Shown in pieces: positions 12,847-57,705 of a stretch of DNA of 64,000 nt; position 1 is the first letter of the stretch; each line of letters opens with the position of its first letter. Made by a program: the position numbers and the translations under genes. The notes under the pieces were generated by a model. The model was not told the origin of the DNA and did not search any database. It saw only the letters and a program-made list of their open reading frames with translations. The DNA is from Lasiosphaeris hirsuta (taxonomy: Eukaryota; Ascomycota; Sordariomycetes; Sordariales; Lasiosphaeriaceae), in contig JAUKUA010000004.1 of NCBI GenBank assembly GCA_030549175.1, positions 4,526,001 to 4,590,000 on the forward strand, written 5' to 3'.

Positions 12847-13023
12847 GCTTGTTCCTTGGTCTTATAGTTGTATATTTTTGCCACTATTGTAAGCAATGCA
12901 GTGCCACTGCAGTAGCAATACTGACAGCCCTCAATTCTAGCAGCTTTCACCCTATTCCATCTAACAGATATAGTTGTTAACTAATTTCATTACTGGTGCT
13001 GAAATAACGGCACACTGGCATTA

Positions 13024-15133: not shown

Positions 15134-16549
15134 TCAGTTACCCCCCTCGACAGTGGCAAGCAGACTGCGAACGGGGAAATTCGGCATCTGGTCCGGGTCA
15201 CTAAAGCTCTTGGGCCACAAATCCGAGCCCTTGGGCGGGATGCCGGACCAGAGCAGCTTCGCCTGCGGGCCAAAGACGAGGCAGTAGCTAGACCCGCCGA
15301 AATGAAACATGCCCATCTTGTCGCCCTTGTCCACGTGCTGATGTTTCTGCACGGTAATCTCGCACCCAGAGGTGTCGGTCATGCCGATGGCGATGAAGCA
15401 CACGAGCCCGATGCTAGCGTTGTCGGCCTGGAGGAAGATGAGGCCGCGCGCGGCGACGTTGGCGATGTACGGCTGCGACCACGTCGGCCCGGCCGGGTCG
15501 GGCTGGCTGGGCCAGTGGCCGAAGAAGGTCTGGTAGATGTTCTGCGAGTAGTACGTCCCCGGCACCAGCACCGTGTCGACGATGGTGCCCGACACGGGCG
15601 CGTGCCACTGGTGGTAGCTGAGGCAGGACAGGAAAGCCTGGTACACTGTGCCGCCGGCGAAGCTGGGCGCCAGCGCGTGTTGGTTCATCATGTCCTCTAG
15701 CGAGTAGCGCTGGTTCTTGCCCATGAAATTGTCGCTCATCTGCACGTTGGTGACGGGGTACTGCAGCGGCGCCGACTCGCAGGCGTGCACAATGATCGAG
15801 TCGTCGCCCTGGCCGACGAGCGGGCGGATGTTGGGCTGGAAGTCGCGCGTGAAGAACTTGTCCCAGTTCTGGAAGCCGTAGGTGGTTGGATCTTTGGGGT
15901 CTGGGCAGACGTAGAGCTCGGGAAAGGTGTATGTCGTGGCTGGCTGCACGCCGTCCTCGTTGCCCATTTTGAGCAAGAAGCTCAAGCCTCCGGAGGGTGC
16001 CGAGAGCCATGAAGGAAGGACGGCAGTCGAGGCGCTGCTGGTGAGAAACGTCTCCCATTGCACTAGCATGGCCTTGAGACATTGATTCACTGATGGATAT
16101 AGAAAAAACATGTATCCAGACGCCGTGGCCATGGGCCAGTCGAGGACTGCGTTGAAAGGACAGCCAATGAGTCCGACTTTGTTCGCAATGTCGTTCCATG
16201 CCGGCCCTTGTGTCAGCAGGACGTTGAAGGCGTTGAGCATGTCCTGGAATGACCGGAGTTCTTGGTTGCCCTCAGGGTCCTCATTGTAGGGGGGGATGTT
16301 TGGCACCTCTGTAAACATGTTCTCGGACAGCGGTTGCAGAATAGCATCGTTGGAAACGAGGTTTTGAAGGGCAACAAGCGTCGGGTCTAGCTGTGTTTTC
16401 GGGCTATCGCGAACACGACTCATGAGCTGCTTGACCCAGGCCACAATGACCTTGCGGTCCTTAGGTAACCAGTACCCGAGTCTGTGGTTGTGGTATCTGT
16501 CGTCATCGAGCAGTGCCCTAAAGGCTGGTGAGATTGGCGAATCTTTCAT
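15134..16549 (-). CDS. Phosphatidylserine decarboxylase-like (PsiD-type) pyruvoyl decarboxylase
   Basis: A single-exon gene of 471 aa, with the ATG at 16549 chosen over non-ATG or poly-Gly-coding upstream extensions. The N-terminal half (about residues 10-200, including HRLGYWLPKDRKVIVAWVKQLM and MLNAFNVLLTQGPAWND) matches the accessory domain found in front of fungal PSD-like decarboxylases. The C-terminal half has FFTRDFQPNIRPL, WHAPVSGTIVDTVLVPGTYYSQ, FIAIGMTDTSGCEITV and GMFHFGGSSYCLVF. In this family the backbone is cut between Gly and Ser of the last motif (here about residues 419/420) to make the pyruvoyl cofactor. No signal peptide or membrane anchor is visible, so a soluble amino-acid or amine-forming decarboxylase, as in the PsiD tryptophan decarboxylase, is more likely than a mitochondrial PSD. 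The substrate cannot be assigned. Confidence 0.88.
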   Translation of the reverse strand: MKDSPISPAFRALLDDDRYHNHRLGYWLPKDRKVIVAWVKQLMSRVRDSPKTQLDPTLVALQNLVSNDAILQPLSENMFTEVPNIPPYNEDPEGNQELRSFQDMLNAFNVLLTQGPAWNDIANKVGLIGCPFNAVLDWPMATASGYMFFLYPSVNQCLKAMLVQWETFLTSSASTAVLPSWLSAPSGGLSFLLKMGNEDGVQPATTYTFPELYVCPDPKDPTTYGFQNWDKFFTRDFQPNIRPLVGQGDDSIIVHACESAPLQYPVTNVQMSDNFMGKNQRYSLEDMMNQHALAPSFAGGTVYQAFLSCLSYHQWHAPVSGTIVDTVLVPGTYYSQNIYQTFFGHWPSQPDPAGPTWSQPYIANVAARGLIFLQADNASIGLVCFIAIGMTDTSGCEITVQKHQHVDKGDKMGMFHFGGSSYCLVFGPQAKLLWSGIPPKGSDLWPKSFSDPDQMPNFPVRSLLATVEGGN

Positions 16550-16652
16550 CTTGGCGAAGTGGCAGAAGTTGTAGGGCTTGATTGCAAACTTGAAGTGCTG
16601 AATTCGTCGGCGACTCGAAGGCACACCATATCTGGCAGGAAGATGGCATAGC

Positions 16653-16659
16653 TTATATA
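16653..16659 (-). promoter_or_regulatory. TATA box of the PsiD-like gene
   Basis: CTATATAAG read on the minus strand, about 105 bp upstream of the ATG at 16549, a usual spacing for fungal TATA elements. Confidence 0.5.
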
Positions 16660-19600
16660 GGTGTAGGTAGGGAGGAGAAAGACGTAGGACACAGGAGAGT
16701 TCCAAACTCCAAAGAAGTCGGGCTCCGCTCAGCTGCAAACCTGCGGCTGGCTTAGGCCGACAAGGTGCATTTCTCCCGCGGAGCGGATTGGCAGCGATGG
16801 GGCCCGTGTGAGACTCTCCACCCCCTCCACCCCCCCCCCCCCTTTTCGGGGTCACGGGCATTAACGTCGCTTGCAGGCCCTGTAAAGTGTGACCTGCTCC
16901 TTGAAATGTGTAACCATGCCCTTCCGGTGCTGCTGCGGGAATGTCGATCAGACTTTTGGACTAGGGAAAGAAACATAACATCGGGAATAATACCTGCCAA
17001 TCAGAAATGTTGGTAATTTGGAACACGAAGTTGACCAAGGCAAGACCCGAACATACGAGAGGGCACAACTGTGGAGGCTGCATGGTGTCGGAACACGAAT
17101 GTCACGGGCGCAGCTCTTTGTCGACTTCCGAACCCCAAGTCAAGACAACTTGAAGGTAGATTGGTGAACCGTGGTCTTGGCCAAACATCATGCGAAGGCA
17201 TACCTCCCCCTACGACGCAACATTTCGGACAAATCCAGGTTTTCGGTGAGCCTAGAAAAGGAGGGCGACCGCGAAGGATAGTTATATGCAGCATAGGTTA
17301 TTAGGGAGCATGGAAGGGCGAGGAAGAGAGCAGCTACCAACCTAGGAACGCTTGTTGAGAAGACTGTGTTTCAGTAGACCTAGCGTGCATGGTCGACATG
17401 TGTAGAAACATGGTCAGAGACCATCCAATGTCCTCCCTTGTGTGGAATTGGCTTGTAGGGTGGGGCACAGAATCATACCCACCTTGATCTTAGAGGGAAG
17501 GCACGGCTAACACCAAAACACACACCTACATGGGCAAACACGCAAAGCCAGTCAACGTTGGCCCCTCGGAAACAAAGTGGTCAGGTGGCTGCCCTATGGT
17601 TTTGCTAAGAGGCGCCACAATCGGTGTTTCTTCCGGTGTGTCCTGCCAATACAAAGAGCAACCGACATCAATAAGACCAGCGCACGACCCGCGGCGGCAC
17701 AGGCACACTCGCCGGCCTCACACAAGCAAGTGCTTTCATCGGCTTCATCAGAGAACTGCAAAACGGCCGCGCTCTGCCCAATCTTTGCCCAGATCTTCCT
17801 CTGATCCGCCCCCGCAACGCCATTGCCATTGAAGTAGACGGTGCTGCCATCGAAGTAGACGGTGCTGCCATCGAAGTAGACGGTGCTGCCATCGAAGTAG
17901 ACGGTGCTATCATCGCCGTCCCTCCTCACCGAGGCCCTGCCCGAGTGGCCGTGCACCGAGACGCCAGCTCGACCAGTCTTGAGTTCGAGCGCCGCCTGCC
18001 ATTCCCCTCGACCGCGGCGTACGACGACGAGTTGTCAATCGTGGTCGTGACTTCGGTGCTGGTGCTGGTGGTGATGGCCTTCTGGCTCTTGCTCTTGGTG
18101 TAGGTAAGGGCTACATTGTCGTTGCCCGCCCTTGCGGCGGCACCGCGGGAGTTGGTACGTAGTCACCCGTCTTTCGCCACGACTCGAGCCGCTACTCATG
18201 TTATCCTCAGTTTTGAATAGCGGTTTGGTTCTTGTTGATGGTTTCAAAAAATATGGCCGTTGTCGGAGAGTAGCGGCCTGGAGGAAATCCGAGGAGTAAA
18301 AAGCCTTGAGGATACGACCAGGCAAACTGAGATGGCAATTTTCCGGCCAATGTCTATGTCGACCATACTGGCAGGGCCGAGAGTATTCAGCGAATTCGGC
18401 CGCCTTGCCAGTAGGAGCATTCACATCGCGAGTAAATGTAAACAGCCAAAAGTGCCTCTGGTTGTGTACCATTGGTGTTTTTTCTTTGCCTCGGGCCGTA
18501 CTGCGTCAAGTATGGTTTGAAAAGTGAGGTGAGTATCTCTCACCTATTACGACGAGTCGAGAAAGGTGATATTATGACATGGGAAAAAGAATGCGCCTTG
18601 ATGCTTGTGTTGGGAAGAAGGTACAAAATCCACAGCATCCTAAGCCCGAGCCATGGCCGGATAGCTGCCCCTTCATCCCTCACTCGTAGCCGCTATTTGC
18701 CTACCCACCCAACAACAAACCCTCTCGGCTCCGAAACATATTAATCCAATCTTCTCCCACTCCCTTCCATCATTAGCGGGCTCGAGATTGCTGGCCTAGC
18801 CTTAGCCGAAGTTCAAATCGGAGGCTCGATCATTTCAAGCTTGGCCGGAGACTCACGAGATGTCACCACCACCACCAGGGTTTGTTCCATCCCCTAAGGA
18901 GGACCTGCCGCGCACAACAGACGGGCTGAGAATGTTTCGTGTGGATGCTGCAGGACTCCAGTGGAGAAATAATCTACACCAGGTCCGTGTAGGCCGAGGG
19001 ACATGCGGTTGCTGCCTTCTCGAGCGATGGTGACATGCTGGCCTGGTCTCGGGACGGTGGCCCAGCTAGGGGTGTGCTCTCGGCCGAGTATAGCGGCTCC
19101 AAGAGCGAGGTCGCAAAAGGAACGTCGCAAGTGCTAGTGGGACGTGTTGAATCCATGACCTGCGAACTGGTCTTGGTGGCCCTGAAGTTCTTTAGGTTGC
19201 CGCCGGAGCCTCCCATCGTAGGCATGCTTTCAGAAGATACAAAAGTATACAATCTTTGACAGACATCTTCGTCTAAAACTTCCCCCCCCCCCGGTCCCCC
19301 AACGTGTCAGTGAATTAAGGAATGTAAAGTGAGTCTTGGTGTCACACTTTTTGCAAAAGGAAATTCCTCTTGCCTGCAGAGCTAGACCACTTATATAATA
19401 CCCCATATGTCATATGCAAAACTTGGGCTAAGGCCGGTTGTGGACCGTGAATGATAGGCGGGGGCGTGGACGCGCGTAGTCCTGCCCCTCTTACATTGAG
19501 GTGTCCAGACGGGCGTGGAGACAGGACCTAGTTAGCAGTCCGGTTGGAGAGCTCTCAAAGGTCGTTCAGAAGTGCAAGGTTGTGCATCATGGTCGGAGTA

Positions 19601-25379: not shown

Positions 25380-26783
<1,404 letters not shown>

Positions 26784-39666: not shown

Positions 39667-42062
39667 ATAGGACTACAATGATAAAATGGGATCACCATCT
39701 GTCCACGACTGTCCCTGTAATGAGCATGTAGATTGGAGATAGGTAGCGGCTTTGATGTGTTTATCCAAGTGTTAAATCTACCTAGGAATCTAGAGTTGCA
39801 TCATTATCTGTCTAACCATTAGGAGTCGTCTTGATCATCTAGGGAAGAGGGAGGTCGCATTTATATGCCAAGAAGCTGGTCTCATTAAAACTATAAAAGT
39901 CGTGGTCCTGGATACCGTACTTTGCTCGTATATCGGCCATAAGCCGAAACCAGTCCCCAATAAGCTTTGGGCCTCCATATAAGGCTCTTTGAGCTATACG
40001 AACGTGAAAAGCGCGCCTTAAGCCCTAGGCGGCGCCACGCAAACTGGTATACCTACTACTTACCGGTGAATCTGCGCGACACGTCAAAAGGAGGAGACTG
40101 GCCATATCTTTCACACTGGCAATCCGGGGCGAGAACCCCTGCGAATCTAGGTCGATTACACATCGTACGAGGGTCTCTTCTTCAGCTAAAGTCAGATTAT
40201 GCTATACGTCACGGTTCTCAGGCTTTGCGACCCGTCCTTCCATCCGGGCGATGAGGGTGTTGATTTTGGCTATTGAGGACCCAAGGGTTTCAGTGACTGC
40301 AATGGACTAGGATGGGCTGCGGCCATGATTGCGGCCGTGCGTAATGATCGGCACTCATTGGCAGCCTTTAGCAGTTTTTGCCAGTTGCTGGATCCAAATG
40401 TAGCGCGAGGGATGGAGATACCACGGACCTGCCTGCAGACGAACTGCAACTGGGGACGATGGCAATGGTGGTAAGCATGGGGAAAGTCCCTTCTGTCAAA
40501 GGGGGGCAAAGGGGGGTATGACAAAGGTGGGGCGCTCATGCCTGCATGTGGTTAAGACCACGTGATGTGCGAAAATGCATCTTTTTACGCACCGGGCACG
40601 TCAAAATGTTCAGGTGTGGCACCACCTTGGTACCACAACATCATCGAGACCTAACCTGAGCTAATTATTTCCCTGTTTCTGTTCGTGGCGTTCTCGCCTG
40701 ACAAAGTGTCGATGCAGATTTACACTAAATGGGCCTCACAGGGCGGAACGGCCAATGGGGGCAGGCGCTGTTATTATTTTTGAAGCCACCGTTAACCTTT
40801 TCTGTATTAGGCAAGTGCTCATCAACGTGATACAGCACCTGCATACCTACAAGCACACTGCATGTGGAAGTCCGCCCAAAGAACAAGACATTTCCTACGA
40901 ACGTCCGGTTTGCTAACCACGACCGTCGGCTCTCAGTAACGATTAGCTTACAGTTTCTGTCAAGTAATTCAGAGTGGCGGCTAAAATTAAAAACCGTGAG
41001 GGAGGACTCCATTCCCCTATGCCCGTTAATGTTGCCTGACTTGCAACTCATGTCGGCTTAAAGCCAAGGTGGGTTCACAAACAATGGATAGGTGCTATGA
41101 TGCGATAGTGCAGTTTACTCGACATCAAGCAAGGTAAGCGACCAAGGCAAGCGACCAAGACAAACGACCAAGGGCGAACGACCAAGGCGGACATACCACG
41201 ATGGGCGGGATGTGTGTAGTAAAAGTGGATCGGATAGAGATGGGACTGGATCGGAGAAGGCTAGCAAGCAAAAATCTGCTACCATCGCCAACAAGCCATT
41301 TCTGGCTGTGTGCTGACTCGACACCGATGCTGTGTAAATGCAGTGGCCGGCGCTTGTCTCGCGAGGCGCATGCTGGATGCATGCAGTTGCCAACGCTAAG
41401 CCCGTTTAAGCTTCGTCTCAAGGTCCCAAGAAGCCCGACGGCAACATCGAGAATCGAGATTGAGCCACTTGTAGAGATGTATGGAAGGTGCTGAGGACCT
41501 GGGCTCAGTACTGCGGCAGGGTACAGTCGTGCCCTATCGGAGTTACCACTTGGTAGACCTTGATTGAGATGCGGCTGCCTCGTCTCAACACACCAGGGTT
41601 CAATGGCCAATACGAGGATACCAGTTAATGTTCCAAAACCCTGATTGATTTATCGCCGTGGGCACATCAAATACGGCATGTGGAGTTTGCGGGAGATCGC
41701 ACCCGCTACTTCTCGCTACCACGACGAATCCAGATGAGTGCCGGCTAGGCATCTGCCTCCTAGGATTGTGGCGCCTCACGAGACAACTGGTTGTTACGAC
41801 GGCAATTCTAGTGGTGTGTGTCTAGGGCTCTCAGGCCATTTCTTCCTGCACATTGCGAAAATACGAGAGCGAGTCTGTGAAAATAAACGCTTATTCCCGG
41901 CTGCATCGAGTTCTGTGTATGTTGCCCGGTTTCTATCGGTCAACTCCCTTCCGCTGACACAATAAATACCCAATGACACCAGGTCCCCAACAAACGGAGT
42001 TGTTGATAGACTTCGCAATCATAATAAACTCCAAACCTTTCTTTTTCTTTCCCACCATCAAC
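39667..42062. other. Gene-poor region with a short tandem repeat
   Basis: About 2.4 kb. Short frames on both strands show no domains. At about 41125-41183 there are four imperfect 12-bp units of the type GCGACCAAGGCA. No gene supported. Confidence 0.4.
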
Positions 42063-42707
42063 ATGACGGCAGGCCGTGACAACCAAACTGCGGCTGGGCA
42101 TATGTATGTGTGGGCATTCCCAACATTCATTCTTCTTCCCTCTATCATCTCCACACTAGGCACTAGCTAGCCCCTCTTGCTCGAATTTACCAATGGTCCG
42201 GGCACTAACAGTATTTACCTTCCAGCAGCACTTGCCAAGGAACAAGCGACTGTAGCGATGCCCCGACTAAATGCCCCAATACTCAGTCGGCCTCTGTCCT
42301 TCTCCTCACACTCAATACCAGCTCTCACTCGCTACCTGGGGGGTCCTTTGCCTCACCGGATGGAGCAGCTAGACCGACAGAGTTACTCCAGGCCCTCCAG
42401 TTCCTTGGCATCGGTCTGCCTCTGGACATTGCGGATAAGATGCTGGCAGACTACGGAGGCTTGCAACCAACGGATAGATTTCTTGCGGAAACCTGTGGCA
42501 TGAAAATGAGGATCGAAGACAGCCTCAATACCGCCAGGGATGACCTCTGCTCAAGCTGCCGGGCTACTGTTGGGTCAGTGGATGAGGAAATCCATGGGTA
42601 AGCTTGAACTATATGAGTCCCGCCACCTGTCGTCGCCTGTATTGTGCAGCGCTTGACTAAGGCCAGGTAATGTCAGATTATTCCATGCCAAATAGGTCAG
42701 ATTTCCG
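42063..42707 (+). CDS. Possible small spliced protein of unknown function
   Basis: Tentative. An ATG at about 42063 (CAACATGAC) could open a short exon ending at a GTATGT donor near 42104; the acceptor CTTCCAG near 42228 follows a CTAAC branch site. The next exon reads STCQGTSDCSDAPTKCPN, then ELLQALQFLGIGLPLDIADKMLADYGGLQPTDRFLAETCGMK and DSLNTARDDLCSSCRATVGSVDEE. A GTAAGC donor at 42600 pairs with CCAG near 42666, after which a short exon ends at TAG (42705-42707). The exon chain keeps one frame and has several Cys, but there is no clear signal peptide and I do not recognise the family. The true 5' end may be elsewhere. It ends 245 bp before the hAT relic. Confidence 0.35.
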
Positions 42708-43175
42708 GTCAAATCGGGAAAATCCAGGATTTGGCTACAGTGGGTGGACAAAAAATCCAGTGTATCGCCATTTGGCCCCCCAACCCCCTGTGGCCACGCC
42801 TATTCAATCGTGCACAACTTTTCCACTTCCTACCCAAAACATATACAATTGCAAAATTTAGATACATTAGATCCAGGGCTTCAAAAGGACTTATATCAAC
42901 ATTTGGTATACCATGGTTGTAAAAATGTGTGGCGTTCGAGGAAAAGTTGGACCAGCGAATGACACAAATCAAATAAATCAAATAAGGCCCCCCTATTTGA
43001 TTTGAATTTGGCAATCAGGAGGCCTATTTAGCTTGCAAATTGGCATATTTGACTTGTTTGTATTATTTGCAAATAAAATGCCAAGCCCGGAACAATACAA
43101 ATTTCTACTCCGACCAAACCCGAACCGACAGCCACCTCCGCCGGCTGAAATCACGCTACCCCAAAACATCGAATT

Positions 43176-43358
43176 TCACTGCCAATGCCGTAAACATTGA
43201 AGCCTAGATATTGTATCGTTATACATGGCTTGTCGCTGGGTACTTACTGTCAATTTGGCACGACTGAATACCCTTTCATACTCTGTTGAAGCCGGAGGTA
43301 TTGAGAGGATAGTTATCGCCATCTGCGAGAGCCTTGGATAACGGTCCTGTTGCGCCAC
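43176..43358 (-). pseudogene. hAT transposase C-terminal dimerisation domain remnant
   Basis: About 60 codons remain open. The motif order RYPRLSQMA, LSIPP, E-ERVFSRAK and LQCLRHW is that of the hAT family dimerisation domain. The upstream catalytic part has decayed beyond reading. Confidence 0.8.
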
Positions 43359-44344
43359 CTACCACTTCAGAGGGTTATCTATTGAAGGAGGCACATACTC
43401 TGATAGGTAGTTGCTAAGTTTATCGTTAACAGGTAGTAGCAGTGGCTCATATTGAATAGATCTATATAAAAAGTCGTTACGCGTAGGTGGGTAGATCTGT
43501 TTAGCTGGCTTTACCCTCTAAATAGGTTGACTGGAATACTTACGGTCGTATAGCTTACGTACCATAGTAATTATATCGTCAACTTACTCTGCCGTCATGT
43601 TCAACTCGAGCCACTTCTTCCTGAGTGATGGGTAGAGTACCTAGGCTGCCTAATAGACTAGAGAGTCCCATAACAATTCGATATATCCTTCCAACTTCGT
43701 AATCATAAGATCAAGGCTTTGTTATATGAAGTTAGCGCCCTCTTAGCCAAGGTCCATATCTAGAGGTGTAAGCGTAGGCACTCTAGGGGGTACCATACCG
43801 TTGGCTAGCCTGGCAGGTTAGCTACGTTATCTCGGTAAGTCGACTTGGTAGCTATCCAAACGGCGTAGTAATTGGCCCGTATTTACGTGTTACGTACGCC
43901 CTGAAGCTGTTACAGGCCTTGTAGGCTCATGGGTTTGTTAGTGTGGTAGTAACGGTAGCCGAGGGAGGTCCGGGCCGGTAAATAACGTAGGTATGGGATT
44001 ATTGTAATAAGTAGCACGTTATATCCGTAGATCTTAGAATAGCCGGTGGGTAATAGGAACTACGTGTACGATATAAGATCTATTACCCTTAAAGACCTTT
44101 GTTACTACCTTAAAAAGCTTTAATATTAACTTTATCACAGTTAATAGTTACTAATCCTCTATATCTAAGATATCTTCGGTAGGGACCTTCTTACCGGCCG
44201 GCTTGTTAGACCATAGATAGTAAAAGATATTTAACGACTCTCGTAGTACGATTACTCTCTTAATCATAAAGAATACTAAGTTCTAATAAGTATCGTTATT
44301 TCTAGCTAACTGTAGTAAGCCGTTAAAACAGTCATATAGGACAG

Positions 44345-45676
44345 TGTGACACAGGCCAGCCCGCGAAGGTCTGGGGTGTGACAACCACAAGGTGAGATAT
44401 CAAATGGAGAGTCAGACTGCAGAGCTTTAACCTTTTCCTAACTCTCGACTCAACCGTTCAGCGAACCACCCCGACAATTGCTGTTGGTCTAGTTCAGAGC
44501 TTTCACACGACGAACTCAGGGACTTGATCTTCGCAGGGCTTAATAAAGCTCAAGGTCCGATTCAGAGGTTTAGAACAGAACGGTGAGGGAGTTAACTGTC
44601 GCAATGCAAAGTGGTGGAGAGCCAGGGAGAAGGAGGTTCAGGGAGATGGAATGATCCAACAGAGGATAAGACACAATGCTTCGCAGTTGCAAGTCGGTGA
44701 GGAACAGAAGGGTTCACAAGGTTGTATTACCCCTCAGCTTCACTGAAGTTCAGCTGATAATCTTTCTAGGTTTGTCCAAAGAGAACTGGGGAGCTTCTTC
44801 CTCTCGAGGATCCGTCGCAGCGCACCTGTCCTACTTATGGAAGGCTATGTACAAGATACAAGGATACCAGAATACCTGAAGGATCCTCCTAGCCGCCCGT
44901 CGGTCCCGAATCTCCTTTCTAGCCGCCCGTCTCTCGCGCCCTACAAATCCGTGGCTACATGCCAAGTAAAGCCGGCCCGTCACACGTCGGTCCATGGTCG
45001 GTATTAGTACTTATCCATACAGCTCTAGCGGCATGGTGTCCATTGCTGCAGGTGTTCCTTCACGTCCTTGGTACTTACGTTGGCCACAGCGCTGTTAGGT
45101 CGATCCCATGTCGGCTGTCACAGCAACGGTTCCCTTCGTGACTCACACGCGGGGGTCGCGGCCACCTGTCACCACTGAAGCTAGACTCCGGAGAACGTCG
45201 GGTTCCAGGTCTTCCAAAGGAATGCCGGTGGTAGCGGGGAGGTCCATGATTCGAAAGACCAGCTGCAGGGTCTGGGCTGACTGTGCAGGCCCTGACCACG
45301 ATGCTGAGGTTAAATGGCTTGTCCATGACAAATCTGAAGTCTGATGACGTTGCCTAGCGCGGGCGAGGATCCGTTGTACGGCTGCTCTGGCTTGTGAGTG
45401 GTTCTGGGCATTCCGTTGCAACCCGTGGGTGCTGTAGGAGAATCCGCTGACCTGCGTGTCGGCTGAATAGGCCATAAGCCACGCGTGGGATCGTGTCCCG
45501 AGGTTGAGCCACGTTGTGGTCATCCTCTGTGATGGTTCCCTTATCCACGTGATCCATGACGGATGTTCGTGGGTCAATGGGTATGTGCTTCTTGTGTGTG
45601 GTTCGTGCCGCTGGTGTAGGGCTCGGTCAAGGAGGTCAGTGACCCTGTTGACCTAGGTGAGCCTACCAGTGTGACA
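44345..45676. mobile_element. Nested TG...CA insertion (solo LTR or small LTR-type element) with TSD GACAG
   Basis: A 1332-bp segment begins TGTGACACAGGCC and ends CCAGTGTGACA, and is flanked by GACAG on both sides (44340-44344 and 45677-45681). It sits inside the hAT relic and is clearly less AT-rich than its host. A 144-codon minus-strand frame at 45143-45577 has no homology that I recognise. A solo LTR of this size would be long; a short non-autonomous LTR element is an alternative. Confidence 0.7.
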
Positions 45677-47358
45677 GACAGAGCCAAAGTCTTCCTTCTC
45701 TTTAGGTGTTAATTTACCGTTAGTGATATGTGTAAAGTCATCGTACCGTTATAGGCTACGCCGAATCTAGTAAACGAGATTGTATAGTTTCTTAACAAGG
45801 CCACGCTTTCTTTATTATTAAAGAAAAGCTTGTTCTTCTCCTATATCTATATAGGCCTAGAAGCTAGGCTTAAGTAAACATAAAAGCCTAGTATCCTTAC
45901 CTTTAAGAAATGCCTTCGTGATAAGGTTAATAATATGGCCAAAGTAGTGAACGTGGCATGCCGACTTTAGGTAGGAAAGTGTATCATAATCTGTAGCCGG
46001 ATATAATAAATCGATAAGTTCGTCGATACAGGTATTATTAGAGGGTACATTATCAGCTTAGTAATAGCTAAGTTTTAGTAAAATGTTATATTTTTCGGCG
46101 GTTATCTTAAGAACCGATGTTAATAACTTGCTAGAGTAGATATTAGTTATCTACTTTATAGCTAATAACTACATAAGTAACGTACCCTAATTGTTAAGAT
46201 AGTATACTACTATTCCTAGGAGAGATAGACTGTTAGGAAAGGTCTAAAGATTAAAGGATATATACTTGGTATAGGGAGATAACGTTATTGTTTCCTTTAC
46301 TTCCGTCTATCGGGCGTGGAACTTCTCGTCAATCTATCTCGTAATAGTCTTACTAATCTCGGGTATTAAAGTATTAACCATTTTAGCGTTTAGAAGCTAT
46401 AACATAGTACGGAAGTTGGCGTGTTATACCATAGAGAAGGGTATGTTAGAATTGATAATTTAGTCGAGTAGAGCTTCCTTAAATTGGTCGGCTATAGACC
46501 GGGGAATCGTAGGCCGGGCCCGGGCGGTTATGCCCTGTAGTTGTTCGAAGATAGATCTAAACCTCTTAGTTGGCCAGGCGGTATCATCATTAAGATCGGA
46601 GCTATTGTTGGTAATACCGTGGGCTTACTTCAAGTAAATACTCGCGTTAGATGTAGTAATAACGCTGTATATACCGTTATTACAGTGCTTGTAATACCAA
46701 ATAGACTCTCCAACGGTATCATCGTTAAGGAGATGGCAAAGCTAATAGCCGTACCCTCCAATCTATGACTTCCGTACCTTCTTCTTATGTATCCATACCT
46801 CCAGTATATAACGCTTTCTCCCATGTTGTACGGTCGGCATGTCGGAAATACGGTAGGGGACATCTTAGAGTAGGGTTACACGTTCTGTCTGGGCCGCGAT
46901 ACCAGTCGTTCGATCGGCGATCAGTCGGAGTAGATTTGTGGTACCGGAGCGAGCTGTTGTGGTTGTTATAGAGGACTGTGTATCGCTATTGACGGAGGCG
47001 GTGTCGGATAGCTCTATTGAGTCGGCCATGATACTAGAGAGGTGTGGATTGAAGATAGTGGAAGATGTGTGCCAAATGCTAATATGCGCTCAAATGGCTG
47101 GAATTGGCTGGAATTGGCTGGAATTGACTACATGGAAAATTCCACTGTTAGCTGTGCTCAAATTGTCGAAAAAGGGCCACTTACCGGGGAGATTTTTTCG
47201 ATTAATTGGGCGTCCAAATCCAGGCTTATTTTACCCTGAAAACCAGAAAAGTGGGACATGTGCCAAATTTGGCATTTTCCTTATTTGGTTTGTATTTGAT
47301 TTGTATTTGGCTTATTTATTTGGACTTTATTTGACTTATGTCAGGCCCTGAGTTGGAC

Positions 47359-50128
47359 GCGACCCGTCCGACGCGTCGGTGAGGGGTTTTACACCAGACT
47401 CTTGTCCACCCACTGTAGTCAAATCCAGCAGCTTTACTATCCTAGTAGAGAATCGGGTCTTTCTCTTTCACTAGTTTTCTCAAACTTTGCTGTTAGAGGG
47501 GTCCGGGGGACGGTGTTAATATATAGTGTATTTAAAAGTGTCTAGAAACTTTGAGAATCACATATATCGCTGGTTGTGGCGATGTGGAGGTAAAATAGAG
47601 TTATGGCGAACTAAGCTGAAAAGGGTTTTTTGTCAAATACTAGGTATATCAACCGGAAAAGACATAACCAAGAGTGTGCAAAATATATTCATTTGATGGA
47701 GGTGCAGCATCATCTTATTCGTCGCCGCGCGCACCAAATCGTCCATGTCGCTGTCCAGTTCCACGAAAACGTGCCCAGCCAAAGCTGCTCTTGGCAGTTA
47801 AGCGCGCCAGCTTCCCTTCAAGGCTGGTACTCTGACGCGCACTGCTTCAGCCATGGGGGAAAGATGTGATAAATAAGGCTTGTTGGTTGGTGGGGTAGGG
47901 TTAGGATAAGGGCAGATGGACAGGAAAATCGGGTTCGGTTTCGTGAGGTAAGCCCAGTCGACGAGGGGATGACAGGTCCCTGGGCTCTGATTGGCCGAAA
48001 TTGGTCGGTATCTCCAGGTGGGGAGATGCGGGATGGAAGTATGTAGCAGATGTCTTTGGCTTGCTTTGGCTTGCTTTGGCTTGCTTTGGCTTGCTTTGGC
48101 TTGCCTTGGCGAGTTAATCGGCTGCAGGTGGGCTGATCAGCTTGTGGGTTTGACGGCGGCAAGAGGCCTGTGCGATTGATGCGCTTCCTTGAGATGCAGT
48201 TGCCGTTGAATGGGGGTGCGCAAACGCTAGATGATGTGTTGTTGGGTGGGCGCGTGAGGGTTTCATAACCTGTGGGAGCAATGTATGGTAATATATAGCT
48301 ATGAGCATGAAGTAGCAAGGTCTGACCTGTGCAGGCGCCCAGACCACCGCACAAAGTGGGCGGTGGTGCCTGTGGGGTAGCCTCAACAGCTTGTCGGCTC
48401 CCTCGGGATCGACGGCCTGAGGAACACCTGGAATCGAAGAGGGTTACTAGAGTTGAACAGCATCAAAGGGGCCAAAAGAAACAAAGGAGGGGAGTAAAAG
48501 CATCTAATGGTTTAGGATAGCTTGGATATCATCCGCAGTCATTTTGTCCTGCTGTTTGTTCAGTGATACAACAGAAGTTGTCGGGGGGTGGAGAAAAACA
48601 GTTCCTGGCCACCACTTCTCCTGGAAAGCAGTTTAAATTCGCGCTGCAGAAAGACATTATGGCAGTTTAGAAATGGGTAGTATAGTGAAATATACTAGTC
48701 CTAAGAATCAGGCCCTAGACTGTTTCCTTTTTGTCGGTCTGGCATACCAAGCAAGCGAGAAATTGAAAGAACAATTGGTCGTCCTTTTCCTTGGCTGCCT
48801 CACGCTTTTGACTTCATGATGTTGCTTGCTGTCATCCGTCTCTCTCTAGATTGTCTGATCCTCAAGCTAGGAAACCGTGCCATCAGTTGGGGAAATGACG
48901 GAGGACGGTCATGAGGATGATGGATATCAGGATCGCGGGAAGTAGGTAAGGTTGAACCAAAACTTCCGCCATCTTCTCCACGATGGGTAGTAGATTCCCC
49001 AAGATGGTCGGCAGCATCTCCAAGGCTTGGGTACATTACATTAGCAAAATATTAAGAGGCGACTCAATCAATCGGATTGGTTAACTTACCGAGGGCGAGA
49101 AAGGCAGCGCAGAAGACGGAAATCCTAGTCGTAGTATGTGCCCGACCCAAGGAGCATATCGCCGCGAAGGCGGCAACTAGCACCAAGGTAAGGGTAGGAG
49201 GGACCTGCCCCAATCGCTAAAGCTGTATCCGCCCTCGCAAATGTCGTTAAACCGTAACCTATTAATACCGACACACCAAGGCTAGCCGTGCCAGCACTTT
49301 CCGCAAGTCCCAGAACACCTTGGTGGTGGTCTGCAGGCCTTTAGCGAACCGACAATTTCGCTTAATTTAATAGGAGTCTAGCTTCACGGTTCAAGAACAC
49401 CATGACTGTAATTTTAGTCCTCAAGGAGGGGGGGGGGGGTTTCAAGGAGGCCACCATCAAGTTTTGTGTATTAGGGCTAGAATAGGTGTCTGATCGACCA
49501 TTGATTGATAGGTAGGGAGATCTCGTTGCTAATTCGCACATACAGAACACCAAGCAAGTGAGCACGGGCCTAGGCCTGTGCTTGTCATCTCAATTTGGAG
49601 TGAACAGTGAATGAATAAATACCTACCCGGCCCAGTGAACAGCACATCTATCTCGTCAAGCACGCCATTGCAATGGGCGGGCAGTAATTAAATTATTGAA
49701 AATTTCTCGTCCGTTTTCTATAATAACACCACCACAGCTCTACGAAAACACCACAGGATACGAACAAGCTCATCTTGGTCCCAACTTTAAGCAACTACAT
49801 CCTCGGCCTTCCATTTCAGCTCAACTACAAGCAATGGACTCATCCACCAGGCAAGAATTAATCATAAATGTTTTTTATTTGCTCGCGGTACCCCCTGGGT
49901 TCTCCAAGACTAGTACTGGATTAGTTAACGAGAGGCAGAGAACCGACCCTGCTGGGAATATTCGAGACTACCTTCCGGCAGTCGATTCGGCAAGTGTCGA
50001 GGTATGATACCACAAATCGCAAAGGGATAATTAGAGAAACTACCGCTCAGTCTGCGTTGGATACCTAGTCGCCATGATGTCGACATCGATGTGATGATGG
50101 ACATTATGAGAACTACCCTGACTGTAGG
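47359..50128. other. Gene-free region with decamer repeat
   Basis: About 2.8 kb with no supported gene. A decamer array lies at 48053-48110. A G-run is at 49431-49439. Several frames on both strands are short and low in complexity. Confidence 0.4.
48053..48110. repeat. Decamer array (CTTTGGCTTG)n, about six units
   Basis: Perfect or near-perfect 10-bp units. On the minus strand it reads as a KQAKASQSKP-type low-complexity peptide; this is a by-product of the repeat. Confidence 0.85.
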
Positions 50129-52260: not shown

Positions 52261-55200
52261 TCACACTGAAAACCCTTTTCTCTCAAAAAGCCTTAGGATC
52301 TCCTGCAAAACATCCCTCTCCTCCTGCGATTCCGTCCCTGAAACACGGGCCGCAGCAGCCCTGTCTCTCAAGATTTCCAATCCAGACGTCCCGCTCCGAT
52401 CCTGCACGGCCGGATCCGCCCCTGCTGCGAGGAGAACAGAGCAAAGGTCATAGTTGTACGAGGCGATAGCGAGAGAGAGAGCCGTGCGCCCATCTCTGTC
52501 CCGGCGCTTGTCGACTTCGACGCCCCTGCACTTGGAAAGAATCTCCTCGGCCACCGCCGTCACGACGCGGTCGATGCGCTGGAGCCTCGGGAACTCGGCG
52601 AGGATGTGCAAGCCCGTCAGACCTTCGCCGGGGCCCACTGTGAACTCGAGCGTCTCGTCAAAGGTATCGAGAAGACGAAACAGGCTTCCAAGCAGCCGCA
52701 GGGTGTTTTGGTGCAGATCGGAAAGCAGATAGCCCAGGATGGTCGTCCCGGGGGGCGAGATGGTGAAGTTGAGGCCCCAGGCGGCGGGGTTGTTGATCAT
52801 GGCATGTCTGTCTTCCGGGGCGGTGCATTCGAGGATGAATGTGGCGAGTTCGAAGGAGGCGCGTGTTACCGCTCCAAAAAAAGGCGTCTGGCTGTGGTTT
52901 GATGGGATTTCGAACCTCGACCCAGCGCGGAGGAGGATGCGCGGGATCTCGAGGCCGCCGAAATAGTTGGCGTAATTCCCAAGGGCGGTTATGCTGCGGA
53001 AGTTGCGGGAGTCGACGTTGGCGCCGCGGGAAATGAGGAGCTCGGTGATGTCGGGGCGGTCTTGCTGGACGGCAAAGTGCAGAGGCGGCTGCTTCCGGAC
53101 GACATCGACGTGGTCAATCGTATCGGGCGCGAGGGCCAGGACGGCGTCAACGATATCGACACAGCGTAGAAGGATAGCCTGTGAGATTATCGGTGTGCCA
53201 TTCGGAAACACCATTCTGGCGCCGTTGTTCTTTAGCGCCGCCAGCGTGTTCGAAGCGGCCGTCTTGAACGATGGGCCATGGCGGCCGATTCTCCCCAAGG
53301 TCCCACCAATCCGGTAATAGTAACCCTGATCAAGAACAGGCTTCAAGAGAGGCCACTCGCCGTTCAGTATAGAGTCAGGATCAAGGAGCCCCTCGGCTTT
53401 CACGTGTTCAAGCATAGCGACAAGGGCATCGCTGCAGTGATAGGTGCACGCAAGCCACAGAGGTGTTGCTAAATCGTTCCTCTTGCTCGCAAGAAGGGGG
53501 TTTGCGCCGTAGCCAAGTAGTGCTCGCACTGCATTGACGCTGTTCCATGCGGCCGCCCGATGTAAAGGCGTTCCAGAAGCCAGCTCTTTGAAGGAAGTCG
53601 AGTGCCACCACTCCTTGCTTGTCTGGGCATGGACATTACCGTGCCCCTGCACGAGACGGGCAGCAAGGTCCTTGATCGAAGGATTGTCGTCGAAGAAAAA
53701 AAGCCAGTGTAGCGGGGTGTCTCCGCCATGGTCGGGAATCGAGGCGTCGGCGCCTCGACTGAGGAGCAGCGTGACGGTCGGGCTGTCCCCCGCCATACAT
53801 GCTTCTAGTAGAGCCGTTTGACCATCGGCGCCTTGTGAATTGAGGTAGCTGAGATCATCACCCCTGAGCTCTAACAGCTTCTTCACCAGAGGTAAATGAC
53901 CACAGCGCGCCGCGGAACGGAGGAGCGAACCATCATCACCTGCTCTATCCGGACCGTCAGCCCATTGACTTGAATCCGACCCCAGAAAGGGGCTTCCGAG
54001 ATCTGAAAAACCAGTCAGTTAGTTAGATTCCACTAACGCACATGATTTCAGTTCTCGTACATTGTTCTCTCCGACGAGCGAGCAGCCTTTCGAGTATATC
54101 TTGGCTGGCCGTCTCGTCAATAGCTGACAATTCATCGAGAGCCGTGATGAAGCCATCTTCGGCGCTTTGCTTCAAGAAAGGAAGGATCTCGTCCTGCCTC
54201 TCCTCAAACAGGCCTAAGCTAGTGGACGCGCGGTATACCACGACCTGGGCAATCTTAAGTCCGAGTTTGGCAGCCCGTATCAGCCAGTTTATCGAGTCTG
54301 AAGGTTTCCTCCCGCCCATAAACTCCAAGCAGCACAGTGACAGGATATACGCCGCTCCCGCCCGCTGTATATCGCTGATTTGACCGCCAGGGGTGTTTGA
54401 GCGTGACTCCAGACTCTCGAGGATCTGGACTTGGATTCTGGTTCCCAGGTGTCGGAGTTCCCGGAGATTGAACTGACCAGTATATGTAGCTCGACCACGC
54501 GGGGTTTCCTCTTGTTGGTGGCTGGATGCGTGTGGCGATGGTTGGCTTGTCGAAATTAGATGCGAGAGCGCTAACTCCAAGTTCCTTGAGGCTGGATCCC
54601 TTTGCAGAGTCAAATCAAACACCGCCCCGTATAGCAACGTTCCGGTGCTCAAAGTTCCGCTGGCTTTCTCCACCATTGATGCCGTTAACTTCAAGCGTCG
54701 AATCGCTTCCCGCGCAGCCTCGCCGTCGAAAGGGGCAGGAACTTCAGTCAGAGCCTCGAACGGATTTGCCCCGCCATTTGCGACATACCAGACAAGAAGA
54801 CCAAACGAGTAGGTGTCAGAAAGCATCATAGTTTCTCTAACCGGTTTCCCCTGGAGCAACTCTGGCGCCTCCCAATCCGCCGTCGCCTTTGGTAGCATTG
54901 GGACGTTGTCGCCGTCAAAAACTGAGAATCCAAAGTCGGAGAGCTTTGGGATGAAGGACTTGGCTTCTTGGCCACGGAACATCAAGATGTTGTCTGGCTT
55001 GATGTCCCCATGGACGATTCCGTTCGAATGCAGGTGCTGCAGGGCGTGCCCGACGGCGAAGCAAAGCTTCGTCTGGTCTTTGACGGAAACTTTCAACCCG
55101 CGACGGTAGCACGCCGACAGAGTTCCCATGTCCGCATACTCCATGATGAGGGACGGCCACATGTGCCCGGGGTTGTCGGTGTGTTCCTCCCACGAAACGG

Positions 55201-55612
55201 ACACCAACTTGGCGATATTCTCGTGTGTGCGGATTCGCTCGTCCGTCAGAACGCGCAGTTCCATGTGCAGCGCATAGAGTTGCTTCATGGTGCGCGCTTC
55301 GTCTTGCTGGTACTCAAAGATGAGCCGTGGCTGCTTGATCGCCCTCACAGCGCTCCGATACGCCCTCGAGCGGTAGACAGTAAACGTCGCACCCTGGCCG
55401 ATAAAAGCGGCCGCCTTCATAGCGGTGGATGACGGGTGGTCTTGACCATAGAGCTGCAGTTTGCTCGCCAGCCAGGTAATCGAGACATAATCGGGCGCCG
55501 TGGTGAGCGGCTCAATGGTGGTGAGAGCTCTCGCGGAGGATGTTTCCCGCTCTGCACTCTCCGCCACTGCTCGCTCCAGGCCCCAGAAACCTGAGCTCGA
55601 TGCTCTGGGCAT
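52261..55612 (-). CDS. Protein kinase with helical-repeat region and C-terminal ankyrin repeats
   Basis: About 1,110 aa in two exons. Exon 1 starts at the ATG at 55612; exon 2 ends at TGA 52261. Kinase domain (about residues 65-330) is complete: GQGATFTV glycine loop (72-79), AIK lysine K93, a candidate alpha-C Glu near 118, HGDIKPDN catalytic loop (201-208), DFG (226-228) and APE (249-251); activity is therefore likely. Residues 385-500 form Sel1/TPR-like helices (INWLIRAAKLGLKIAQ). After the intron come ankyrin repeats: DGSLLRSAARCGHLPLVKKLLEL, GQTALLEACMAGDSPTVTLLLSRGAD, GTPLHRAAAWNSVNAVRALLGYGAN, PPLHFAVQQDRPDITELLISRGAN and GRTALSLAIASYNYDLCSVLLAAGAD. Two splices restore the frame: 58 nt from GTACGA (joining to LGSPFLG) or 49 nt from GTGCGT. 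It is divergent from the HeLo gene. Confidence 0.85.
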
Positions 55613-55977
55613 TGTTCTGGAGATGACTGAGTTGTCCTTTTAGCGATTGTATATATATGTATCTAGGGAAAATGATGAAAAAGAATGGTGTGCTGCTCCC
55701 ACCTTTGAGATGTGTTGGCAAGCTGTATTGGCTGCATGGCCTGATGAGTAGAGCCGACGAGGTTACACAAGAAAGCCACACACCCTCCCCTCCTCTTTCA
55801 TCGGGGGCCATTTTCGGGACACGCCAATGAGGCCCCGGTCACGAATGGTCACGCCACGCCAGCAGGCGAGGGGGTGCGCGATTTCTCGCGACATGAAGAG
55901 CTGTGTCGATGAGAGAGGTGACAACACGGCAAAACGAAACTACGTCCCCGTGAAAAACAATCTCTTTACGTGCCAAG
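55613..55977. promoter_or_regulatory. Shared divergent promoter of the kinase-ankyrin and HeLo-pseudokinase genes
   Basis: Only 365 bp separate the two ATGs. A minus-strand TATA-like TATATATA near 55648-55657 lies about 40 bp upstream of the kinase ATG. Such a short head-to-head arrangement allows co-regulation, but this is inferred from spacing only. Confidence 0.55.
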
Positions 55978-57705
55978 ATGGCCAGCTTTCCTGTCGCAGC
56001 CTCGGCAATCGGACTCACCGTCACGACTTTCACACTATGCGTTGAAGGGCTTCAGGCCATTCGGCGCGCTCGCAGATCCCCAGGGACTATGCTGAACTTC
56101 GACATCGGAATCGATATAGAGACAGCAAGGTTGCTTCTCTGGGGGCATAATTCTGGCGTCGCTGCGGGCTTACTTGACCCGAGTTTGGAGCCCGTCCGGC
56201 CGCTCATCGATCGCATCCTCGGCACGCTCCTCTCGGGTCTCCGCGACGCGCAAGGGCTCAAGTCCAAGTACGGTATTCGTATTTCCGATGGCCAGGATAC
56301 GGACGCCCCAGCCGCCTCCATGTCGATGGATGGTCATGTTGACATACTCGGTCTGCCGGTACAAGTTGTCAAATTGGCGCTTCGCAGGCATAACGAACAG
56401 TGCAAGAGCCTCAAGGAGCAGACCAGTGTCTTTCAGAAGACCAAGTGGGCCATCAAGGACGAAAAAAAAGCTTCCAAGTTAGTCAAGGATGCCAAGTCAT
56501 TCGTCGATAGGCTCAATCAACTCCTGACGGAGAGCCAGAAGGCTTCGCTGGACGCCGAGACGACGGCCGTGAAGATTGCCATTTTGGGTACAAACTGGAA
56601 TCACCCAGCCAAAGCACTGGCTGCCATCGAGAACGCCACCTCGGGACTGCATGAATCCATCGCCATGCCCGCGCGGCTCTCCCGTCTCCGACTGGAGATG
56701 GAAATGGAAGTTGCCGCCCCGACCTTGGAACCAGGTTTAGGATCGCTGCCCCAGCCTCTGGTTCTAGCGCATAACCAAGTCCGGCCTTTGGACTTTAGTA
56801 GATCCCTGGTCAGACACGGCGGCAGGGACATGATAATTGAATGGCGCCATCTTCAAGCAAGGGAGGTATCAGGGGAGAAAGGCGAAGCACGCGCTAGGCA
56901 GGCAGCGCGGCTAGTACAACTATTCCAGGAACTACGAGGACATGAGAACGATTACCCCATTCTTGAGTGTGTCGGTTTTGTCGACAATCGGCACAATATA
57001 CCCGCTCGCCTGGGCGTTGCCTTCGCCATGCCTGCCAAGTCATTGGGCCCCGAAGCCAGCCCGCCGTGGTCGTTGCACGACTATCTCATGTCTAATAGGT
57101 TCGAAGCTTTCCTACCATCCCTCGGGGAGAGGTTCGAACTCGCTCGGAGGATCGCTAGGGGATTTCTCCAATTCTTCCAGTTTGGGTGGCACCACAAAAG
57201 CATCCGCAGCCACATCATCGGCTTCTTCCCGGAGAACGACTCACCGACTGTTCGTACCCCATACATTATGGGGTTCGCATACTCTCGGCCTCACGAGAAG
57301 GGCGTTTCGGACCAGGAACGCCGTACCACCGAGCTTCAGCTATACCAGCACCCCGAGGATCAGGGTCGGGATGAACCGGGGCACAAACTAATCTACGACA
57401 TGTACGGCATCGGCATGTTGCTCTTTGAGATTGGAATGTGGAGATCTATTGGAGCATACTACGCTCGATGGAATCGGAATGACAGGTCCTTGGAGGTCGG
57501 GTCCTTCGGTAGCAAGCTGATCGAAGTGGAGAGCGCCAATCTCGAGTTCCGGATGGGGTCGCATTTCAAGAGCGCCGTCATCGACTGTCTTACTAGTAAC
57601 TTGGGTACTGGGGAAGTAACCAATATGGAAGATCCTGGAGCCCGAGACTTGAAGCTCTCGTATTTTGAAAAAGTAGTCAAAAAGCTGGATCTTTGCAGGG
57701 CATAA
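55978..57705 (+). CDS. HeLo-domain protein with C-terminal pseudokinase-like domain
   Basis: Intronless, 575 aa. Residues 1 to about 230 resemble the HeLo domain of HET-S and related proteins: a hydrophobic N-terminal helix (ASAIGLTVTTFTLCVEGLQAI), IDIETARLLLWG (compare the DIAKARLSRWG region of HET-S), LIDRILGTLLSGLRDAQGLKSKYGI, then WAIKDEKKASKLVKDAKSFVDRLNQLL. HeLo domains are membrane-targeting death domains in fungal incompatibility. Residues 265-560 have a kinase-like C-lobe (SLHDYLMSNRFEAFLPSLGERFELARRIARGFLQFF, then YDMYGIGMLLFEIGMW), but the catalytic-loop position reads WHHKSIRSHII without the Asp, and the DFG position reads MGFAYS. No glycine loop is seen. It is therefore a pseudokinase by sequence. 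Domain order is that of MLKL (helical bundle then pseudokinase). Confidence 0.85.
   Translation: MASFPVAASAIGLTVTTFTLCVEGLQAIRRARRSPGTMLNFDIGIDIETARLLLWGHNSGVAAGLLDPSLEPVRPLIDRILGTLLSGLRDAQGLKSKYGIRISDGQDTDAPAASMSMDGHVDILGLPVQVVKLALRRHNEQCKSLKEQTSVFQKTKWAIKDEKKASKLVKDAKSFVDRLNQLLTESQKASLDAETTAVKIAILGTNWNHPAKALAAIENATSGLHESIAMPARLSRLRLEMEMEVAAPTLEPGLGSLPQPLVLAHNQVRPLDFSRSLVRHGGRDMIIEWRHLQAREVSGEKGEARARQAARLVQLFQELRGHENDYPILECVGFVDNRHNIPARLGVAFAMPAKSLGPEASPPWSLHDYLMSNRFEAFLPSLGERFELARRIARGFLQFFQFGWHHKSIRSHIIGFFPENDSPTVRTPYIMGFAYSRPHEKGVSDQERRTTELQLYQHPEDQGRDEPGHKLIYDMYGIGMLLFEIGMWRSIGAYYARWNRNDRSLEVGSFGSKLIEVESANLEFRMGSHFKSAVIDCLTSNLGTGEVTNMEDPGARDLKLSYFEKVVKKLDLCRA

Follow-up and report, generated by a model that had tools for sequence, protein, structure and literature searches.

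A head-to-head kinase-ankyrin and HeLo-pseudokinase gene pair in Lasiosphaeris hirsuta as a candidate two-gene cell-death unit with exchangeable executioners

When a fungal gene for an apparently complete protein kinase lies head-to-head with a gene that joins a HeLo domain to a kinase-like domain, do the two make up a single death switch? The question is raised by a 64,000-nucleotide stretch of the genome of Lasiosphaeris hirsuta (Sordariales; 44.4 Mb in 14 contigs), the whole of which we call the window (C9:4526001-4590000). Its gene A encodes a kinase with ankyrin repeats, and its gene B a HeLo domain followed by a pseudokinase. As set out in the available part of a review (PMC12881547), the HeLo domain of HET-S executes death at the membrane, and MLKL is released when RIPK3 phosphorylates its pseudokinase. 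Our preferred answer, to which we give a probability of roughly 60%, is that the two genes form a unit of regulated cell death in which the kinase switches on a pseudokinase-gated executioner. By its anatomy, gene A would serve as both sensor and switch, with gene B as executioner.

An earlier note, made from the letters of the window, described two open genes placed head-to-head, and their coordinates and the gap between their start codons are confirmed (Table 1). The long open reading frames of gene A, 54023-55639 and 52261-54018, lie in different frames, and removal of the intron at 54060-54003 joins them into one protein. Several GT-AG choices leave the frame open, and the one chosen has the best-looking sites. 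Exon 1 carries a kinase domain (Pfam Pkinase, 2.4e-26), exon 2 the ankyrin repeats, and the stretch between them is probably Sel1-like, given a Sel1 match below the cut-off (5e-4) in a paralogue, that of pair P3. The loop glycine, catalytic lysine, HGD, lysine, asparagine, DFG and PE are invariant across six homologues of the window kinase (alignment A1, from which the window kinase itself is excluded), and the window kinase carries the same catalytic residues. Among the kinases of the pairs described below (A7, seven genes, window included), the loop glycine, the lysine, the aspartate of HGD or HSD, the second lysine, the asparagine and DFG are invariant in 7/7; the APE segment of the P10 kinase is not clear in the alignment. 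Gene A is thus predicted, as the earlier note had proposed, to encode a catalytically complete and active kinase. Neither exon has a NACHT or NB-ARC match in Pfam at E ≤ 1. The public protein of this species, P0015, has 666 aa, is identical to the ankyrin part, begins at residue 432 of the full gene A protein and has no kinase, so the public annotation (window 52264-55612) splits the kinase-ankyrin gene.

Gene B is the putative executioner. Its HeLo domain belongs with solved structures: the HET-s HeLo crystal structures are matched at 2e-9 (2wvo) by profile A3, which comprises 14 gene B relatives, and at 9.6e-15 (2wvq) by the broader profile A6. On this homology the N-terminus is predicted to be a HeLo helical bundle. 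All 14 A3 proteins, which were gathered using a HeLo-containing query, have a HeLo match at E ≤ 0.01, and 11 gene B relatives have both Pfam domains, HeLo and DUF7580. Hydrophobicity over 19 aa peaks at residues 4-22 of the gene B protein, and in all nine of the 14 proteins that were examined an N-terminal 19-aa window is the hydrophobicity maximum of the protein.

The C-terminal half of gene B looks like a kinase that cannot catalyse. With positions assigned by motif rather than from a structure, the VAIK lysine is a glutamate (E288) and the DFG position reads GF (G432, F433) in 14/14 rows of alignment A2; gene B itself has GFA at residues 432-434. HRD has become HKS in gene B, with serine for aspartate, and the aspartate is kept at that position in 2/14 rows (P0007 and P0012). 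The kinase-like domain therefore appears to lack catalytic residues. The earlier note had pointed to the missing aspartate and DFG; both losses hold, and the replaced lysine adds a third. The pseudo-activation loop offers two candidate phospho-acceptors, S436 and S444. Position 436 is serine in 13 and threonine in one of the 14 A2 rows, and serine or threonine in all ten rows of the pair alignment, and S444 is serine in 13/14 A2 rows but is not kept in most paralogous pairs.

The strongest evidence that the two genes belong together is that the arrangement recurs. The L. hirsuta genome was searched with the HeLo protein, which gave 15 matches and, after merging, 14 loci; kinases were searched independently and gave at least 128 loci after merging (candidates scored: 122/250 and 142/166). 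A kinase lay within 6 kb of 9/14 HeLo-pseudokinase-related loci, divergently in eight (window included), where 0.55 pairs were expected, and 20,000 uniform random placements yielded at most 5 pairs and 3 divergent pairs. Because the window prompted the search, the fair count leaves it out: 8/13 loci are paired and 7 of the pairs are divergent, against 0.51 expected (Poisson 7.5e-8 and 1.0e-10). The probabilities are 1.2e-5 and 1.2e-8 when the number of kinases is doubled, and 1.6e-5 and 2.6e-7 when pairs P7 and P8 are also left out with the window (6 paired, 5 divergent). Chance adjacency is rejected on the pair counts and the random placements, and the conclusion is the same with the doubled expectation.

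Six of the eight other pairs have a window-like kinase, five of them arranged head-to-head and one tail-to-tail. The remaining two are P7, which is apparently degenerate, although some of its stop codons may be intronic, and P8, whose kinase looks to be of another class. With these two included, the divergent arrangement that the earlier note reported at one locus is found at seven others. A further pair, P10, emerged from inspection of the kinases, was verified by a search with the P9 effector, and stands outside the count of 14 loci. In P2, P3, P4, P6 and P10 the chosen start codons, picked by eye, are 249-470 bp apart (365 bp in P1, the window pair). The kinase start codon of P5 is not settled; measured from a residue close to the kinase domain, the effector starts 1478 bp away.

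The pairing is also visible from other starting points. The window kinase has 35 other matches; pairing is seen in 7 of the best 11 and in 0 of the remaining 24 (Fisher 4.9e-5, from a count entered by hand in which one of the seven, P10, was found post hoc). Four unpaired kinases, L054, L056, L057 and L060, were viewed with 1.5-kb flanks and coordinate lists, a view that partners of another type could escape. By comparison, a kinase lies within 6 kb of 6/24 DUF7580 loci (window included), always divergently, and of 7/19 HeLo loci: five times divergently and twice on the same strand, one of the latter being a HeLo-kinase fusion. The seven divergent cases outside the window, with the occurrence of both proteins on contigs of equal length in two other species, support the view that the head-to-head pairing has been kept by evolution.

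The HeLo domain does not appear to be the constant part of these pairs. In P6, P9 and P10 a caspase-like domain seems to take its place. The Peptidase_C14 family (PF00656) matches P6 at 3.5e-8 (33.9 bits against a cut-off of 21.4), the P9 N-terminus aligns with the other two at 36% and 32% identity, and all three have GH and LDCC motifs in common; the caspase-like part matches metacaspase-1 in the PDB at 0.54, which is not significant. DUF7580 passes its cut-off in P2 and P4, and the kinase-like part of P3, P5, P6, P9 and P10 was assigned mainly because it resembles the window protein or that of P9. Because the caspase-like domain appears to replace HeLo while the link between kinase and pseudokinase stays, these three copies suggest a general switch, from kinase to pseudokinase, to which different executioners can be coupled. 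We regard as evenly balanced the wider proposal that this is an undescribed class of fungal death circuit, mostly a head-to-head kinase and pseudokinase-gated executioner, in which the kinase-pseudokinase link is constant, the executioner (HeLo pore former or caspase-like) is exchanged, and a counterpart of RIPK3-MLKL operates with neither a NOD-like receptor (NLR) nor an amyloid. This one genome would then hold eight copies of the circuit, none with an obvious interruption in the DNA read and at least five with ankyrins.

Other arrangements of the same domains occur in the genome. L025 (C10:1391206-1394850) and L028 (C11:3064138-3067887) are HeLo-pseudokinase genes, with frames of 692 and 648 aa, that have no listed kinase within 6 kb; Pfam finds DUF7580 in L025 only and not in L028. 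It is possible that they are solo executioners or orphans. In the single open frame of L031 (C12:4378726-4380063), HeLo (3.2e-27) is fused to the N-terminal portion of a protein kinase (1.4e-36) whose loop is of the HRD type, apparently a fusion of HeLo with an active kinase. L029 (C1:4769642-4771468) is a fusion of HeLo with a ubiquitin-conjugating enzyme domain (UQ_con, 1.3e-19); a kinase matches on the same strand, 1.9 kb away from the match to HeLo.

How close are the two kinase parts to those of the animal system? Profile A6 combines 15 proteins: eight from the previous set, five HeLo paralogues (three paired and two without a kinase within 6 kb, with P2 and P4 entered by their second exon only) and two caspase-like paralogues. 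In the best 60 of its 232 PDB matches, the kinase part finds LIMK1 first (8.9e-6) and MLKL second among solved kinases, at 5.7e-5 (6vbz) and 8.4e-5, followed by a B-RAF fusion at 1e-4 and by 4btf, a longer MLKL chain that we take to be full-length mouse MLKL, at 1.7e-4. Further MLKL, IRAK4 and B-RAF entries stand lower, and the MLKL structures span 5.7e-5 to 6.7e-4. The likeness of gene B to MLKL that the earlier note drew is therefore borne out for the family profile. Narrower queries give less: with profile A3 alone the kinase part is weak, with GCN2 first (0.0066) and MLKL at 0.51, and the single paralogue P4 finds MNK1 and GSK3 at 0.05-0.2 and no MLKL.

The paired kinases themselves (profile A7) look generic against PDB structures, and their top matches presumably belong to the tyrosine-kinase, STE and TKL groups. 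A RIPK identity for the gene A kinase is unsupported, as other kinases score higher in the best 60 of 2724 PDB matches. The pair may work like RIPK3 and MLKL, and we do not claim membership of those families for either protein. Amyloid-type signalling between the partners was likewise rejected: in none of the four region pairs tested did a segment exceed shuffles. The kinase termini share no 21-mer above shuffles with the HeLo linker or tail; no RHIM profile search was made.

If kinase and pseudokinase depend on each other, their histories might run in parallel. Across eight paralogous pairs the distances among kinases and among pseudokinases are correlated with r 0.475, a value reached in 604 of 40,320 relabellings, and adding two orthologous pairs raises the correlation to 0.86 (0/5000 relabellings). 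The trees omit P7 and P8, and P5, P9 and P10 enter them as rough versions with splice sites not settled. P2 and P4 are sisters in both trees (99 and 82), and P9 and P10 are sisters in both, weakly (40 and 41).

The pairing also appears to extend beyond L. hirsuta. A protein search with the HeLo protein gave 14 proteins, the window's own included. With the kinase as query, 66 were returned: five (P0015-P0019, the ankyrin half from the window among them) cover at least 61% of the query and the rest at most 47%. Rhypophila decipiens has both proteins (65% and 61% identity), each on a contig of 25,262 bp, and Aspergillus similis has both (52% and 50% identity), each on a contig of 52,541 bp, under the consecutive names BDV11DRAFT_174908 and 174909. 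The equal sizes suggest that both partners lie on one contig in each of these species, and the pairing that the earlier note proposed to look for in other genomes may therefore exist in two. No relatives were confirmed in a collection of prokaryotic genomes or among viral contigs.

From the domains, their catalytic status and the recurrent pairing, we infer the following mechanism. The ankyrin repeats of the gene A product would detect a trigger, such as a signal of non-self or damage. The active kinase would then phosphorylate the pseudokinase half of its partner or release it by binding, probably acting at the pseudo-activation loop, so that the signal would run from kinase to pseudokinase. 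The N-terminal helix of HeLo, once freed, would attack the membrane and kill the cell.

Several observations weigh against this reading of the pair as a death unit. Pfam ankyrins are present in 5/8 apparently intact pairs (P1-P4 and P9), and none were found in the P5, P6 and P10 DNA read, which for P5 and P10 is incomplete at the kinase 3′ end. P8 had to be set apart as a further pair of the same kind, as the kinase frames seen there resemble another class. The Peptidase_C14 match of P10 is just below the cut-off (18.6 bits, 0.0017), and P9 has no Pfam match to this family. The chance models place loci uniformly and ignore the clustering of fast-evolving genes, and 5/14 related loci lack a listed kinase within 6 kb. 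The correlation between the trees is modest, and most of their deep nodes are weakly supported. No RIPK stands among the best 60 of the 2724 PDB matches to A7.

The survey of other species contributes contrary cases as well. The HeLo protein was found without a detected kinase partner in Lophiotrema nucula, Rhinocladiella similis, Lindgomyces ingoldianus and Wilcoxina mikolae, and seven further entries without a species name are likewise HeLo only. Fusarium nygamai and Fusarium sp. DS 682 have the kinase (42-51%) with no HeLo partner detected, and a protein search aimed at the missing Fusarium HeLo partners and at other kinases brought one weak addition only (P0081). These absences are weak evidence, because partners can be missed where the search filters by length and word or where an annotation is split, as it is in L. 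hirsuta.

The linkage could have other meanings. The kinase might guard the HeLo-pseudokinase in the manner of an antidote, so that its loss or mismatch, for example on fusion of unlike hyphae, unleashes the executioner and allelic mismatch serves allorecognition. Tight head-to-head linkage (249-470 bp in six pairs) would give equal dosage, which fits a poison-antidote logic, and P7 has stops inside both genes, as if they had been lost together, though introns may explain some of them. Against this, a kinase with many ankyrins seems more elaborate than an antidote requires, and the known fungal cluster nwd2/het-S runs from sensor to executioner (PMC10197012, in its available part); we think a guarding kinase unlikely. 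Slightly less likely again, in our view, is linkage for co-regulation in ordinary signalling, such as development or secondary metabolism, with no death involved and HeLo acting as a membrane anchor or oligomeriser. DUF7580 loci are indeed numerous and mostly unpaired, and no paper on DUF7580 was found in the open-access literature searched. Such a role sits poorly with the presence of HeLo in every A3 protein (collected, as said, with a query containing it) and with the hydrophobicity maximum at the N-terminus of all nine proteins examined. It also leaves aside that the domain exchanged for HeLo is caspase-like, which points to an executioner role.

We give least credence to the idea that one ancestral pair was duplicated repeatedly and that the present pairs are its passive remnants, their genes no longer functionally dependent on each other. 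The sister relation of P2 and P4 in both trees is what duplication of the whole unit predicts. The paired copies, however, are about 25-38% identical to the window pair and are spread over six contigs, of which five are large and one is small. Without selection, gene order would normally have broken up over such divergence. That both proteins also lie on equally sized contigs in Aspergillus argues in the same direction.

A two-gene death unit of the kind we favour resembles several known systems without coinciding with any of them. Like RIPK3-MLKL, the window pair appears, by sequence, to combine an active kinase with an effector that joins a predicted helical death domain to a pseudokinase. 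Unlike that system, the fungal genes are linked head-to-head, the kinase has ankyrins and is not specifically RIPK-like, and LIMK1 scores slightly above MLKL. Fungal protease-gasdermin clusters differ in that the caspase-like domain here carries a pseudokinase and has a kinase as its neighbour; no search for gasdermin genes was made. We know of no kinase gene linked to the plant MLKL genes. The plant MLKL proteins (wheat Pm13, PMC10951266, available in part) have, as gene B is predicted to have, a helical N-terminus and a kinase-like domain in one protein. In nwd2/het-S and other fungal NLR-HeLo clusters, sensor and HeLo executioner genes stand side by side as they do here (PMC10197012, available part). 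The presumed sensor of the window is a kinase-ankyrin protein instead of an NLR, no amyloid segment is shared in the stretches tested, and the link between the partners appears to run from kinase to pseudokinase.

The open-access literature, which leaves most subscription papers outside its scope, yielded no description that we recognised of a kinase paired with a HeLo-pseudokinase, in keeping with the earlier note, which knew of none. The effector architecture by itself is not new: HELL domains with kinase or pseudokinase domains are mentioned in PMC12881547, whose available part states no partner kinase, pairing or caspase-like exchange for them. PMC9815663 and PMC12258605, in their available parts, treat the HeLo and kinase domains of NLRs. 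Within this literature the HELL-pseudokinase architecture is already on record; its pairing with a kinase and the exchange of executioners appear to be new.

Fungal necroptosis-like death has so far meant an NLR and an amyloid acting on a HeLo protein. If the reading of the pair as a death unit is true, fungi would also possess the remaining half of necroptosis: a kinase that acts on a HeLo-pseudokinase would amount to the kinase-to-pseudokinase switch, which would then seem to predate animals or to have arisen more than once. With HeLo exchanged for a caspase-like domain before the same type of pseudokinase, a single control module would serve both necroptosis-like and caspase-like death. A linked gene pair without NLRs would also make an easily tested system, in yeast or in Podospora.

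Table 1. Features of the window pair (window positions) and of the related pairs in the L. hirsuta genome (contig positions with strand signs).
Feature	Position	Strand	Description	Match or basis
Gene A (kinase + ankyrin)	ATG 55612 to stop 52261	minus	1097 aa, one 58-bp intron	
Gene A exon 1	54061..55612	minus	about 65-aa N-terminal extension, kinase domain (residues 69-286), putative Sel1-like helical linker	
Gene A intron	54003..54060	minus	58 bp, GT-AG, GTACGA...TTTTTCAG	junction ungapped against Rhypophila decipiens P0016
Gene A exon 2	52261..54002	minus	ankyrin repeats up to the stop codon	Pfam Ank_2 1.7e-33, 5 stretches
Bidirectional intergenic region	55613..55977		365 bp between the gene A and gene B ATGs	
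Gene B (HeLo-pseudokinase)	55978..57705	plus	575 aa, one exon	
HeLo domain	55996..56559	plus	residues 7-194	PF14479 8.4e-26, 91.5 bits against cut-off 23.2
Predicted pseudokinase C-lobe (DUF7580)	57037..57690	plus	residues 354-571	PF24476 6.4e-8
P1			window pair, HeLo-pseudokinase and kinase-ankyrin	
P2	C7:6365542-/6367184+		HeLo with kinase-like C-terminus; kinase with ankyrins	Pfam
P3	C1:238538+/237656-		HeLo with kinase-like C-terminus; kinase with ankyrins	Pfam
P4	C7:3260405+/3259593-		HeLo with kinase-like C-terminus; kinase with ankyrins	Pfam
P5	C7:6629986-/6633015+		HeLo-type N-terminus in upstream frame	by eye; HeLo match below cut-off (0.0011)
P6	C9:5511279-/5514256+		caspase-like-pseudokinase and kinase; no ankyrins in 1.2 kb downstream	
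P7 (L022, L035, L082; C8:961831-969600)	C8:966665+/965367-		divergent HeLo-DUF7580 and kinase, stops inside both matches	
P8	C12:3631673+/3629842-		kinase looks like another class; no ankyrins	by eye
P9	C2:572981+/577560-		tail-to-tail; caspase-like-pseudokinase (by similarity to P6 and P10) and kinase with ankyrins	Pfam
P10	C8:636341-/638037+		caspase-like-pseudokinase and kinase; no Pfam ankyrins in the part read	

Some minor features were seen in passing. Two kinase matches, at C4:14559-15450 and C1:1715423-1716314, have identical scores, which suggests a duplicated or alternative piece of the assembly. Within the window, positions 10001-14000 and 42001-50000 are low in G+C (0.41-0.49, against 0.50-0.60 in most other 2-kb steps) and could be decayed repeats. 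The window also holds a phosphatidylserine decarboxylase-like gene at 15137-16960 (8.2e-39) and a glycosyl hydrolase family 18 gene at 25794-26780 (3e-72).

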